This document shows, piece by piece, positions 47,651 to 52,992 of a stretch of 53,428 nucleotides of DNA. Under the pieces are notes generated by a model. That model was not told the origin of the DNA and made no database searches. It saw only the letters and a list, made by a program, of their open reading frames with translations. The DNA comes from Actinomycetes bacterium (GTDB lineage: Bacteria; Actinomycetota; Acidimicrobiia; Acidimicrobiales; Ilumatobacteraceae). Positions within the stretch are counted from its first letter, which is position 1. Each line of letters starts with the position of its first letter. The DNA lies in the NCBI GenBank assembly GCA_025351965.1, contig JANXUX010000184.1:1-53428 (forward strand), written 5' to 3'. Position numbers and translations under genes: made by a program.

Positions 47651-48446
47651 GTGACTGACCTCTGTTCCGGGCCCGAGACGGGCCCAGCATCCCGTTCCCT
47701 CGGCGATGCCGTTTCGAACGCGCATGGCGACCGTTCGGCGTGATCGCGATCATCTCGAAGCCGTACCGGTCGACGGCAGACATCGAGGCCGAGGTCGTGT
47801 CCGGGTGACCGGCGAGGTGACGGCAGAACAGGACCTGTGAGTCGGCGTGGTCCACGTTCATGTGCTCGATGATCCCGGCAGCTGAATCGACCAGCGGGTC
47901 CGGCTCGCTCGCCGCGTATGCGGCGGCGTCGACCCAGCTCATCCGGCCATACCCACCGACGTAGCGAATGCTCTCGACCTGCAGTACGTAGAAGACGAAA
48001 TCGCCGAAGTCGATGTAGTACGACGCGCTGGGGTTGGCCGCCAGGTAGCGGTCGCGTACAGCGGCCCTACCCTCGTCGTCGACGGCGAGCAGGGTGCCCA
48101 TCAGCGTCGCCCGTCCGGTGGCCAGCGGATCCGCGCCCTCGGGGACGGGTTCGGTGACGAGCAGGCTGGCGCGCGGATCACGGATCGCGTTCTGGGTGTG
48201 CTCGGCCATCAGGCTGACGAAGAAGATCGGATTGCCGCGCTCGTCGAGCGCGAAGCTGGCGACCGAGCCGTACGGATAGCCGGCCGGGTCAGCGGCCAAC
48301 GTGGAGAGCGCACCACGGCTGGCGCCGGCGACGAGGGTGCGGCAGCGCTCGGCGTGAGAGGGCTCGGGCGGCGGCGCACCAGCAGATCCGGGGGTGCCAC
48401 TGTCGTCGCCCGCGGGGACCTGATGCATGTTCGGACGTTCTGACAT
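47526..48446 (-). CDS. HugZ-like FMN-binding split-barrel protein with aberrant C-terminus
   Basis: The protein has a pyridoxamine-oxidase-like split barrel (R-G-A-L-S-T-L, F-F-V-S-L-M-A-E-H-T) and a DUF2470 domain (H-M-N-V-D-H-A-D-S, V-D-R-Y-G-F-E-M), the HugZ layout associated with heme degradation. After Y-G-F-E-M-I-A-I-T-P the sequence turns into Arg-rich residues unlike the family and runs 125 bases into the NuoF-like gene. A frameshift near 47735 is likely, but neither alternative frame restores a convincing family tail, so the true end is uncertain. The ATG at 48446 is preferred. Confidence 0.75.
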   Translation of the reverse strand: MSERPNMHQVPAGDDSGTPGSAGAPPPEPSHAERCRTLVAGASRGALSTLAADPAGYPYGSVASFALDERGNPIFFVSLMAEHTQNAIRDPRASLLVTEPVPEGADPLATGRATLMGTLLAVDDEGRAAVRDRYLAANPSASYYIDFGDFVFYVLQVESIRYVGGYGRMSWVDAAAYAASEPDPLVDSAAGIIEHMNVDHADSQVLFCRHLAGHPDTTSASMSAVDRYGFEMIAITPNGRHARSKRHRRGNGMLGPSRARNRGQSHVHRCVPREPRAPRRPLRDVGRICQRSRWGRRPARRPAGPA

Positions 48447-48519
48447 CACATCACGCTACGCGAGCAACGGCCCGCACCACCGATTTGCGAACACCGGATC
48501 GGTGCGCCAACCTGAACCG

Positions 48520-48996
48520 ATGGAGTCTCGACGATCCGGTGACGGGTTCATGCGCTGCGGAGACGGCCGGGTGCGCTGGGGTGTCTACGGAGCGGCCGGC
48601 GTGCTCTTCGTGATCCGTGAATCCGGCGCGCCGTTCGTGATGCTCCAGAAGCGGTCGGCGATGGCCCACGAGGGTGGTTCGTGGTCGTGTGCAGGCGGCG
48701 CGCTCGACGAGGGCGAGTCCCCCTACGACGGGGCGATACGCGAGGCATCAGAGGAGGTCGGCGACGTCCCGGCCGACCATGCGGTCCTCGGTGAGTACCT
48801 GTTCGCTCCCGCCCACGACTGGACCTACACCACCGTCGTCATCGAGGTCACCGACCGGTTCGGGTCGTCGATCAACTTCGAGACAGACGCCGTCGACTGG
48901 GTCCACGTCGACGAGGTCGACGATCGCTTCCTCCATGCCGGCTTCGCCGCAGCCTGGCCACACCTGCGCACGATCATCGAAACACCTGACACCTGA
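48520..48996 (+). CDS. NUDIX hydrolase
   Basis: This 158-residue protein has a complete Nudix box: G-G-A-L-D-E-G-E-S-P, then A-I-R-E-A-S-E-E-V-G, matching G-x5-E-x7-R-E-x2-E-E-x-G. The strand W-G-V-Y-G-A-A-G-V-L-F precedes it. Substrate is unknown; many family members clean up nucleoside diphosphate derivatives. ATG 48520 is the chosen start; another Met ten residues later is possible. It converges on the Hsp70-WD40 gene with 14 bases between stops. Confidence 0.88.
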   Translation: MESRRSGDGFMRCGDGRVRWGVYGAAGVLFVIRESGAPFVMLQKRSAMAHEGGSWSCAGGALDEGESPYDGAIREASEEVGDVPADHAVLGEYLFAPAHDWTYTTVVIEVTDRFGSSINFETDAVDWVHVDEVDDRFLHAGFAAAWPHLRTIIETPDT

Positions 48997-49010: not shown

Positions 49011-51533
49011 TCAGCCCGCCCACACCCGGGCGACACCGTCCGCGCCGGACGTCACGATGCGCGTCCCCGACGGATCGAACTGGGCGGTGAACACCATCCC
49101 GGCGCCACCGTCGAGCGTTGCCAACAGCGGGTGGCCGGCGACGTCCCACACGGTCGCGGTCCCGTCGAGGCTCGCGGCGACGTAACGCGAGCCGTCCGGG
49201 TTGAACGCGACCCCGTACACGTCAGCGATGTGGGCCTTGTCGATGTCCATCGGGCTCCCGTCGTCGACGCGCCACAAGCGGACCGATCCGTCCATCCCGC
49301 CGGACAGGACGAGCGTTCCGTCCGGGCTGAAGACCGCCATCCAGACCTTGCCCATGTGACCGGACAGGGAGTGCAGCGGTGTTCCGGACGCGACGTCCCA
49401 GACGATGACCGTGCCGTCGTCGCCGGCGGACACGAGCAACGTGCCGTCGGGGCTGAACGCGACCGTCTGCACGTCGGCGGTGTGGCCCTGCAGCATGTAG
49501 ACGACATGGCCCGTGGTCGGGTCCCAGACCATCACCGTGTCGTCCTGCCCACCGGTTGCGACGAGCGTGCCGTCCGGGCTGAATACAGCCGAGTACACGG
49601 CCTCGCGGTGGCCGCTCAGCGTGGCGACCTGTCCGCCCGTGGCGGCGTCCCACACCCGCGCCGTGCCGTCTGCACTCGCCGTGACCACCCGCGACCCGTC
49701 GGTACTGAAACTCGCTTCGTAGACGACGTCGGTGTGGCCGTCGAGCACGGCTGTCCCGGCGCCGGTGGCCGTGTCCCAGACGCGCGCAGTGCGGTCTGCA
49801 CTCGCGGTGACGAGACGACGTGAATCCGGGCTGAATGCCACCGAGTAGACCTCGTCGGTGTGGCCCTCCAGCGTCGCCTGTAGGCCACCTGATGTTGCGT
49901 CGAACAACCTCGCCCGTCCGTCCAGACTTGCCGCCGCCACCATCGAACCGTCCGGACTGAACACCGCAGAGAGCGTCTGGTCTGTGGCCCCTGACAACGT
50001 CAGCAGCGCTGTCCCGACGGCAACGGTGGGGGCAGTCGACGCGACTGTTTCGACCGACGTAGGGCCCGCGCTCGAGTCGACCGGCTCGGTCGACCTCGAT
50101 CCGTTTCCGTCGGCGACGAACGCCGGATCGGTCGCGAGCGACGACGCCGGCGGACCGTCGAGCACCGTGGACGCCCCGGAGCCCGACGATGAGTCGTTGC
50201 GCCTCGCAAGGATCACGGCGCCGACGGCGGCGAGCACGATCACGACGAACAGTGCGAACGCGACGCGACCCCGTCGGCGGCGCGGCGAGACCGTGGCCGG
50301 CAGGTCGACCACGGTGGCGCTCGACCCGGCGGCTGGTGTCGCAAGCGTCTCGTGCGGCCATGCAGCGGCAGCTGGCCCACTCGGTGGTCCGAGCCGCACC
50401 GCTTCTGGCGCGGTCCCCGGGCTGGCGGGCTGGGTGGGCACATCGCCGACGGGCGGTTTCGGCGATGCCATGACGGCCCGGGCGGCGCCCAGCGCAACGG
50501 CTGCCTTCGGGTCACCGCGTCGGCTGATCGGCAGCGAGCCGAAGGCTGCGCCCACCATCGCTTCGACGATCGGGGATCGGCTCGCCCCTCCGACGAGTGA
50601 GATGGCAGCGAGGTCCGTCGGCTGCAGCCCGGCCTCGCCGATGCACCGCTCCAGGAGGGTGACTGTCTCGGCCACGTACGGGCGCACGATGTCGTCGAAC
50701 TCGACCCGGGTCAATCGCGTCTGGGACAGCCCGCTCGGCAGCGGCACGATCACATCGACGTAGGGGTGCAGCGAGAGCGACTCCTTGGCCCGGCGAGCCT
50801 CGTTGCGCAGCGTCGCACCGACCTGGCGCCAGACGGGCTCGTCGCCGGTCTCGATCGAGTCGCGGGCGACCGCAGGCAAACGGTCGAGGAGGTGTTCGAC
50901 CAGCAACTCGTCGAAGAGCTCGCCGCCGATGTGCTGATCACCGCTCGGGCGGCCGACGATCACGAACTGCCCGTCTCGCGCAGTGACGACCGCTGAGTCG
51001 AACGTACCCCCGCCGAGGTCGTAGACCGCGACGGACTGGCCCGTCGCGATGCCGACTTCACTCGCGTACGACAGTGCCGCGGCGACGGGCTCGGGCACGA
51101 GCTGCGGGTTCGCCAGCCCCGCCTTGGTAGCGGCCTCGACGAGCCGACCGAGGCGCTGCTGATTCCAGGTCGCCGGGTGACTGAGGCGCACCTCGCGCGG
51201 CGGTCCGCCCATCTGGCGCAGCACCTGTTCGTAGACGTCGCCAAGCAGGGCTGCGACGAGGGCGACGACCTGATGGGGGTGACCGCTGACGATGACCGGA
51301 GCCTGGTCGCCGAGACGGTTCTTGAGCGCACGCAGGGTGCCAGCCGGATGGGTCACGGACAGATCGTCGGCAGCGCGCCCGACGATCAGGTGGCCATCGG
51401 GATCGACGAGGACGACCGACGGGATGCGGCGCTCTCCCCCGATCTCGATGACCTCCGGGGCTCGTCCATCGACCTGCACGGCCGCGACGGTGTAGCTGGT
51501 CCCGAAATCGATGGCGAACACCCAGGAAGACAA
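49011..51533 (-). CDS. Hsp70-like ATPase fused through a membrane helix to an eight-repeat WD40 propeller
   Basis: This 840-residue protein has an Hsp70/DnaK-type ATPase at residues 1-356: I-D-F-G-T-S-Y-T (phosphate 1), Y-D-L-G-G-G-T-F-D (171-179), G-D-Q-H-I-G-G-E-L-F-D, and L-V-G-G-A-S-R-S-P (adenosine). No Hsp70 substrate-binding domain follows. A Pro/Ala linker leads to a basic patch (R-R-R-R-G-R) and one membrane helix at 424-443, then a Ser/Gly linker to eight WD40 repeats (507-840) with V-W-D or close variants at about 42-residue intervals. The basic patch suggests the ATPase is inside and the propeller outside. Related architectures are seen in actinobacteria; the function is unknown. 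Confidence 0.9.
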   Translation of the reverse strand: MSSWVFAIDFGTSYTVAAVQVDGRAPEVIEIGGERRIPSVVLVDPDGHLIVGRAADDLSVTHPAGTLRALKNRLGDQAPVIVSGHPHQVVALVAALLGDVYEQVLRQMGGPPREVRLSHPATWNQQRLGRLVEAATKAGLANPQLVPEPVAAALSYASEVGIATGQSVAVYDLGGGTFDSAVVTARDGQFVIVGRPSGDQHIGGELFDELLVEHLLDRLPAVARDSIETGDEPVWRQVGATLRNEARRAKESLSLHPYVDVIVPLPSGLSQTRLTRVEFDDIVRPYVAETVTLLERCIGEAGLQPTDLAAISLVGGASRSPIVEAMVGAAFGSLPISRRGDPKAAVALGAARAVMASPKPPVGDVPTQPASPGTAPEAVRLGPPSGPAAAAWPHETLATPAAGSSATVVDLPATVSPRRRRGRVAFALFVVIVLAAVGAVILARRNDSSSGSGASTVLDGPPASSLATDPAFVADGNGSRSTEPVDSSAGPTSVETVASTAPTVAVGTALLTLSGATDQTLSAVFSPDGSMVAAASLDGRARLFDATSGGLQATLEGHTDEVYSVAFSPDSRRLVTASADRTARVWDTATGAGTAVLDGHTDVVYEASFSTDGSRVVTASADGTARVWDAATGGQVATLSGHREAVYSAVFSPDGTLVATGGQDDTVMVWDPTTGHVVYMLQGHTADVQTVAFSPDGTLLVSAGDDGTVIVWDVASGTPLHSLSGHMGKVWMAVFSPDGTLVLSGGMDGSVRLWRVDDGSPMDIDKAHIADVYGVAFNPDGSRYVAASLDGTATVWDVAGHPLLATLDGGAGMVFTAQFDPSGTRIVTSGADGVARVWAG

Positions 51534-51663
51534 CGGCGACAGATTCCCCTGTGAGGACGAACCGCCGACCTTACCGCTCGTTCCCGACGCGCCCGGCGAC
51601 CCGATCGCCGGTTCCCGAGGGTCCGGCAGCCCACCCAGCAGTAGGCCGCTCTACACTGCCGGC

Positions 51664-52992
51664 ATGCCCGCTCCCGGAATGCACTCAGGTCTGCCGACCG
51701 ACCAAGCCCTCAACCTGGCGATGTCCGAGCACGCCGTCCCCCTGTTCGAGGCTGTGCGCACGTTCATCGCGACCGAGGTCGAGCCGATCACGGAGGAGTT
51801 CTACCGACTCGGCGAGGGTCGGGCCCTGCACTGGGGCTACGGCGAAGGCCAGCTCGAGCTGCTCGACTCGGTGAAGGCCAAGGCCAAGGCCAACGGGCTC
51901 TGGAACTTCTTCCTGCCCAACGCCGAGACCGGCGAGGGCCTCTCCAATCTCGACTACGCCTACATCGCCGTCGAATTGGGCAAGAACCCACTCGCATCCG
52001 AGTGCCTCAACTGCAGCGCGCCGGACACCGGCAACATGGAGGTGCTCGAGCGGGTCGGCACGCCGGAACAGAAGAAGCAGTGGCTCGAGCCGTTGCTCAG
52101 CGGCGAGATCCGCTCCGCCTTCGCGATGACCGAGCCCGACGTCGCATCGTCGGACGCCAAGAACATCCGCTGTAAGGCCGTGCTCGACGGCGACGAGTGG
52201 CTGATCAACGGCGAGAAGTACTACATCTCCGGCGCCGGCGACCCGCGCTGCAAGATCATGATCTGCATGGTCCAGACCAGCGAGGACGGCCCCGCCCACA
52301 AGCGGCAATCGCAGATCCTCGTGCCGATGGACACTCCTGGTGTCGAGATCGTCGGGGCGATGCAGGTCTTCGGCGAGGACGACGCACCGCACGGCCACAT
52401 GCACCTCCGCTTCACCGACGTCCGCGTGCCGAAGGAGAACATTCTCTGGGGCATCGGTCGCGGCTTCGAGATCTCCCAGGTCCGCCTCGGGCCGGGTCGG
52501 ATCCATCACTGCATGCGTTCGATCGGCGCTGCCGAGCGTGCACTCGAGCTGATGGTCCGCCGCGGCCTCAACCGCGAGGCGTTCGGCAAGCCGATCGCCC
52601 GCCTCGGCAAGAACACCGAGGTGATCGCCAAGGCGCGCATCGAGATCGAGGCGATGCGCCTGATGGTGCTGCGTGCTGCCAAGGCAATGGACGTCATGGG
52701 CAACGCCGAGGCCCGGGTCTGGGTGAGTGCCGTCAAGGCAATGGTGCCGATCCGCGTCTGCGAGATCATCGACGAGGCGATCCAGATCCACGGCGCCACC
52801 GGCGTGTCGCACTGGACACCACTGGCCCGGATGTACGCCAGCCAGCGAACGCTGCGCCTGGCCGACGGCCCCGACGAGGTGCACTGGCACGTCGTCGGCC
52901 GCGCCGAGCTGACCCGCTACGAGGACGATCACGCCCCCGCCGTCGGCCCGACGTCCGCCAGCAATGCCGGCATGTTCTCCGGTCCGTCCTGA
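51664..52992 (+). CDS. Acyl-CoA dehydrogenase
   Basis: This 442-residue flavoenzyme oxidises acyl-CoA to enoyl-CoA. It has F-A-M-T-E-P-D-V-A-S-S, W-L-I-N-G-E-K-Y-Y-I-S-G-A (FAD region), R-L-G-P-G-R-I-H-H, R-E-A-F-G-K-P-I and the C-terminal I-H-G-A-T-G-V. It looks closer to ACAD10/11-like enzymes, which often sit beside aminoglycoside-kinase-fold proteins, than to short-chain enzymes. A kinase-fold gene does follow immediately. ATG 51664 is used; a Met five residues later is an alternative. Confidence 0.92.
   Translation: MPAPGMHSGLPTDQALNLAMSEHAVPLFEAVRTFIATEVEPITEEFYRLGEGRALHWGYGEGQLELLDSVKAKAKANGLWNFFLPNAETGEGLSNLDYAYIAVELGKNPLASECLNCSAPDTGNMEVLERVGTPEQKKQWLEPLLSGEIRSAFAMTEPDVASSDAKNIRCKAVLDGDEWLINGEKYYISGAGDPRCKIMICMVQTSEDGPAHKRQSQILVPMDTPGVEIVGAMQVFGEDDAPHGHMHLRFTDVRVPKENILWGIGRGFEISQVRLGPGRIHHCMRSIGAAERALELMVRRGLNREAFGKPIARLGKNTEVIAKARIEIEAMRLMVLRAAKAMDVMGNAEARVWVSAVKAMVPIRVCEIIDEAIQIHGATGVSHWTPLARMYASQRTLRLADGPDEVHWHVVGRAELTRYEDDHAPAVGPTSASNAGMFSGPS

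Follow-up and report, generated by a model that had tools for sequence, protein, structure and literature searches.

Gene architecture and genomic context

The window analyzed here is the whole 53,428-nucleotide stretch of actinomycete DNA. Near its end, the reverse strand encodes an 840-aa protein (49011..51533) in which an Hsp70-type head, a single transmembrane (TM) helix, and a WD40 domain follow one another. The gene opens with a TTG codon, 12 nt 5' of which a possible ribosome-binding site, AGGGG, can be read (51546..51550, reverse strand), and the open reading frame (ORF) and its translation have full matches in two other genomes (G004 and G005). All of the parts lie on the reverse strand. 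The nucleotide-binding domain (NBD; aa 1 to 355; 50469..51533) was delimited by its Pfam HSP70 match, DnaK NBD fold, and ATP-site residues. It is followed by a disordered Pro/Ala-rich cytosolic linker ending in RRRRGR (aa 359 to 416; 50286..50459; pLDDT of <50), the TM helix (aa ~417 to 444; 50202..50285; seen in hydropathy, in the structural model, and in Lys/Arg counts), a disordered Ser/Thr/Pro-rich outer linker (aa 445 to 504; 50022..50201; pLDDT of <50), and an eight-bladed WD40 propeller (aa 505 to 840; 49014..50021; defined by repeats, Pfam WD40, and matches to Tako8 and ODA16).

A chain of Hsp70 ATPase, one membrane helix, and WD40 propeller had been proposed from the letters of the DNA, and Pfam, the repeat count, and AlphaFold2 agree on it. 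The domain search suggested with that sequence-only reading returned HSP70 (PF00012) at 157 bits (gathering cut-off, 20.6) and WD40 at 257 bits (cut-off, 27). The AlphaFold2 model of the full chain has a mean pLDDT of 84.8; most of the head and of the propeller exceeds 90, and disorder is seen at about residues 359 to 419 and 444 to 503. The propeller consists of eight WD40 repeats that span aa 509 to 840 at a constant 42-residue spacing and is closed in the model, as the earlier assignment of eight blades had it; a seven-bladed propeller is excluded by the eight exact repeats. Its structural matches include Tako8, a designer protein with eight blades (TM-score on target, 0.94 to 0.96; rmsd, 1.4 to 1.6; VIA Z, 45 to 46) and ODA16 (Z, 50.5). 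A PADLOC match on the protein proved to be a WD40 cross-hit.

The same Hsp70-WD40 fusion, in one frame and with a 66% identical head, is found in G004 and G005 (L039 and L040), and named copies occur in the Acidimicrobiales/Ilumatobacteraceae metagenome-assembled genomes RYN_39 and RYN_42 (L105 and L106). In the L039/L040 orthologues, dN/dS is 0.09 for the head and 0.15 for the WD40 domain, i.e., both are under purifying selection. A spurious ORF or a fusion of frames is excluded by this selection together with the in-frame pairing of similar heads with WD40 in the two other genomes. Base composition agrees along the gene (GC/GC3 of 0.698/0.854 in the head and 0.695/0.866 in the WD40 domain; window GC, 0.677).

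The flanking genes, assigned by Pfam, show no evident functional link: a divergent acyl-CoA dehydrogenase (51664..52992, forward strand; likely start, an ATG read at 51664) and a convergent NUDIX hydrolase (48427..48996, forward strand). Further neighbors are CREG-like/DUF2470, NuoF-like, and GGDEF-EAL proteins (Pfam) and an SDR and an LLM-type oxidoreductase (by reading). The neighbors of the window gene do not recur beside its Hsp70-WD40 counterparts in G004 and G005, and the gene looks like an orphan. No DnaJ or GrpE gene lies on the window contig, as had been noted of its surroundings; these genes are on other contigs, with the dnaK-grpE-dnaJ cluster of this genome on contig C451.

An Hsp70 head apparently released from J-protein control

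Hsp70 is normally a folding machine driven by J proteins, and the roles of the DnaK ATP-site, J-contact, and linker residues considered here are established (Escherichia coli numbering, transferred by motif to the DnaK of the same genome). The HSP70 match of the window protein ends at profile position 369 of 599, which implies that only the NBD is present, and the modeled head folds like that of DnaK (VIA Z of about 42). Beyond aa 355 come disorder, the TM helix, and WD40, with neither an LLLD linker nor a substrate-binding domain (SBD). The ATP site is almost entirely preserved in the relatives: D8, T11, E171, G196, T199, S274, and G341 are kept in all 59 heads, K70 and K270 in 58, and D194 and D201 in 56. 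In the window protein, all of the examined residues are kept except T12 (Ser) and E267 (Arg), two changes common to all 10 members of its close clade. The core motifs are thus intact, as claimed from the sequence, and the loss of ATP-binding residues in most relatives, named at that time as a finding that would undercut a signaling role, is not what we see, since nearly all of the relatives keep them.

The J-domain contacts R167, N170, and T173 and the LLLD393 linker were kept in 15 of 15 DnaK controls. The window protein has Q, P, and V at the three contact positions, and the contacts and the linker are all lost across its close clade (n = 10). Among the other 49 heads, N170 and the linker Asp are lost, R167 is present in 4, and Thr is not one of the common residues at position 173. 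The curated NCBIfam cut-offs for DnaK/HscA are not reached by the window protein (147 bits versus 648, with the others also far below). An ordinary DnaK is excluded by these scores, the lost linker and J contacts, and the missing SBD. The description of the protein as far from a classic chaperone and without an SBD can be extended to the linker and the J contacts. From these losses we infer an ATPase free of J-protein drive and of SBD coupling; the head appears, by its residues, to be an ATPase that is no longer J-protein driven or tied to an SBD.

The DnaK-like NBD fold and the full dnaK-grpE-dnaJ cluster in the genome would suit a membrane-tethered helper of DnaK, whose NBD would attach to DnaK or serve as an exchange factor in the manner of Hsp110 and so bring chaperone activity to the membrane. 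We consider such a helper improbable because the J-protein contacts are gone and because it leaves the swapping of ectodomains among relatives (see below) unexplained.

Membrane topology and disordered tethers

The TM helix has a mean hydropathy of 3.15 over 19 residues and is flanked by five Lys/Arg residues on the head side and two on the other. The same bias toward the head side is seen in 48 of 58 TM-bearing family members and the reverse in 5. Since no signal sequence can be read, the head is expected to be N-in, and the Lys/Arg excess, together with the mostly extracytoplasmic types of ectodomain in the family, many of which hold 2 or 4 Cys, predicts a C-out arrangement. An N-in, C-out single-pass protein with the propeller outside is thus strongly predicted. 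By the positive-inside rule and the ectodomain types of the relatives, the propeller is expected to face outward, as in the sequence-only reading, and a topology with the propeller inside, named there as a refuting result, is not what is predicted. WD40 domains are usually cytosolic, which counts against a receptor with its propeller outside.

The earlier idea that the head moves with ATP and passes this motion along the helix to the propeller, or that binding outside is transmitted inward in the same way, is favored by an intact ATP site and a single helix with head and sensor in one chain. The linkers, however, do not support this direct coupling. The model places ~60 disordered residues between head and helix and ~60 more between helix and propeller, through which no force would pass unless they fold or bind something, and the head-to-TM gap varies freely across the family (median, 74.5 residues), from <30 to >140. 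Such long tethers on both sides weaken the case for rigid or mechanical coupling across the membrane, and we regard direct coupling as distinctly unlikely.

A family with one head and many ectodomains

At least one non-DnaK Hsp70 head was found in 16 of the 61 genomes searched at the genus, family, and order levels. A TM helix follows 58 of 68 distinct non-DnaK heads and 0 of 15 DnaKs, frequencies that come from a head set collected by similarity to the window protein and are not unbiased. The survey of domain order across Actinomycetota and of gene neighbors proposed in the sequence-only reading recovered this head-TM layout with many swapped ectodomains. A paralogue in the same genome (G000:C294:21013-23166; L003, L037, and L124), whose neighborhood is apparently shared with G003 (L038), has a 67% identical head and a different ectodomain, the model of which (pLDDT, 88.6) best matches the extracellular domain of PknH in the PDB (4ESQ; Foldseek E, 3.3e-6; TM, 0.60), followed by TiME. 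All six strong matches to this PknH-like sensor in these genomes are on Hsp70-headed ORFs, and it is also carried by other members of the head clade of the window protein. Other heads bear FGE-sulfatase (sulfatase-modifying-factor), GH99, NHL, BON, and Septum_form domains above the Pfam cut-offs and, by reading, YVTN-like propellers. Three tandem TM-Hsp70 genes stand at L048:5511-13276; an FGE-sulfatase ectodomain is present in at least one of them, and a second is similar by reading.

The window protein combines the features that define the family, i.e., a non-DnaK head, the ATP residues, no SBD, one TM helix, and a variable C-terminal ectodomain. Judged from these comparisons, its propeller belongs to a wide set of interchangeable ectodomains, a point absent from the sequence-only reading, and the gene belongs to a larger, apparently undescribed Actinomycetota family that joins one ATPase head to many outside domains. 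The WD40 fusions themselves were found in only three genomes, all of one genus, and the clade of the three WD40-bearing heads is supported by only 57/54. The WD40 domain of the window protein is 38 to 40% identical to those of its relatives versus 41 to 45% to WD40s of unrelated proteins, including nSTAND1-linked ones.

Outer domains that include likely enzymes and binding domains would be at home in a surface adhesin or other envelope protein whose head would do no more than anchor the chain or aid export and whose ATPase would be vestigial in the output. That account is highly improbable, given the near-universal retention of the catalytic residues and a head that evolves more slowly than the ectodomain (dN/dS of 0.09 versus 0.15 to 0.21 and of 0.02 versus 0.12).

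Gene partners of the relatives

Twelve related genomes have a Dynamin_N GTPase that scores as real (≥40 bits), and in 8 of them this GTPase is either joined in one chain to a non-DnaK Hsp70 head or encoded no more than 6 kb from one, a proximity expected by chance in about 0.3 to 3% per genome (G020, G022, G027, G052, G016, G019, G023, and G041; L047, L049, and L054). In L047, an Hsp70-Dynamin_N fusion and a protein kinase-Dynamin_N fusion (L047:9634-12618 and L047:12485-15430) stand side by side, adjoining a TM-Hsp70 gene. Nonomuraea gerenzanensis (NZ_LT559118, L121; 4138-10136) has a dynamin-like GTPase, a TM-Hsp70, and, by reading, a caspase-like gene in a row, and the GTPase matches the PADLOC LeoBC/LeoA models, which suggests a defense or cell-death setting. 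LuxR-family regulators are found near TM-Hsp70 genes in L045, L046, L051, and L054, and most of these regulators contain an AAA domain. A Rhodococcus rhodochrous plasmid (NZ_CP120357, L120; 7579-9206) carries a grpE of its own, immediately followed by a short Hsp70-family gene.

The dynamin proximity, the L047 fusion, and the GTPase adjoining the Nonomuraea TM-Hsp70 would fit a scaffold or anchor with no relay of a ligand signal. In such a protein, the outer domain would determine where the actin/Hsp70-fold heads cluster at the membrane or where they tether a cytosolic assembly, which in the relatives would be formed by dynamin-like GTPases. The best Dynamin_N score in the window genome is 22.6 bits, too low for a real dynamin, so the link is not directly transferable to the window gene, and no dynamin-like neighbor was seen in its close clade; for this protein we consider a pure scaffold fairly unlikely.

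Similarity to known systems and a model

The closest parallels in layout are the mycobacterial receptor kinases PknD, with a six-bladed propeller sensor, and PknH, which, in the order and topology predicted for the window protein, place an N-terminal cytosolic ATP-using head before one TM helix and a C-terminal extracellular sensor and are thought to be activated by dimerization that brings the heads together (PMC3601408). The PknH sensor fold recurs on the paralogue of the window gene. The difference lies in the head, which is an Hsp70 NBD; Pkinase had no match in the window protein among the 25 Pfam families listed, and with no kinase domain, there is no phosphorylation output. PkwA of Thermomonospora curvata (PMC6113231) also sets a catalytic head before a C-terminal WD40 region, 37 to 38% identical to that of the window protein, and differs in having a kinase head and seven blades rather than eight. 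The nSTAND1-TM-WD40 proteins of Actinomycetes (L084, L085, L089, L090, and L092) share the order of NTPase head, TM, and WD40 with an unrelated STAND NTPase as the head, and the WD40 domains of L084 and L085 are among those most similar to that of the window protein. Thus, the head-then-propeller design is common to at least three Actinomycetota heads, namely, kinase, STAND NTPase, and Hsp70. The DnaK/Hsp70 chaperones share the NBD fold and ATP-site residues with the window head, which lacks their LLLD linker, SBD, and J contacts and belongs to a protein that spans the membrane. Actinobacterial HSP70 genes without a peptide-binding domain have been linked to GTPases in DO-GTPase/GAP1 conflict systems (PMC7159879); in the portion of that report available to us, they are parts of GAP1 operons, and no TM-ectodomain fusion is described. 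Unlike in those systems, no GTPase or GAP1 was found by Pfam and reading among the neighbors of the window gene.

We tentatively favor, at a little under an even chance, a single-pass modular receptor in which the propeller senses and the Hsp70 heads signal by proximity. This reading draws on the computed domain order, ATP site, lost J contacts and SBD, swappable ectodomains, and disordered tethers. The outside propeller would bind an envelope or environmental ligand or partner, and this binding would concentrate or retain copies of the protein locally. The heads on their tethers might then act by proximity, with the signal passed to cytosolic effectors through the ATP- or ADP-bound state of the heads and through their contacts with one another or with partners. 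Clustering of the heads, which we infer to be ligand driven, is favored over direct mechanical coupling by the long disordered linkers and the receptor kinase-like layout; by analogy, the protein may work like a receptor Ser/Thr kinase with an Hsp70 head rather than like a J-protein-driven folding chaperone. A wider and still more tentative possibility is an Actinomycetota receptor class with a J-independent Hsp70 head and interchangeable extracellular sensors, parallel to the receptor Ser/Thr kinases and in part working with dynamin-like GTPases. If true, the Hsp70 cycle would have been redeployed in transmembrane signaling, with the ATPase kept and the substrate-binding and J-protein parts dropped. 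The parts are already known; the literature searched, which took in few subscription journals, yielded no description of their union in a modular receptor family or of bacterial transmembrane Hsp70 receptors. Topology, ATPase activity, and knockout phenotypes are testable in culturable bacteria, since TM-Hsp70s, with four cysteines in the ectodomain, are encoded by Amycolatopsis isolates, e.g., Amycolatopsis rubida and Amycolatopsis orientalis.
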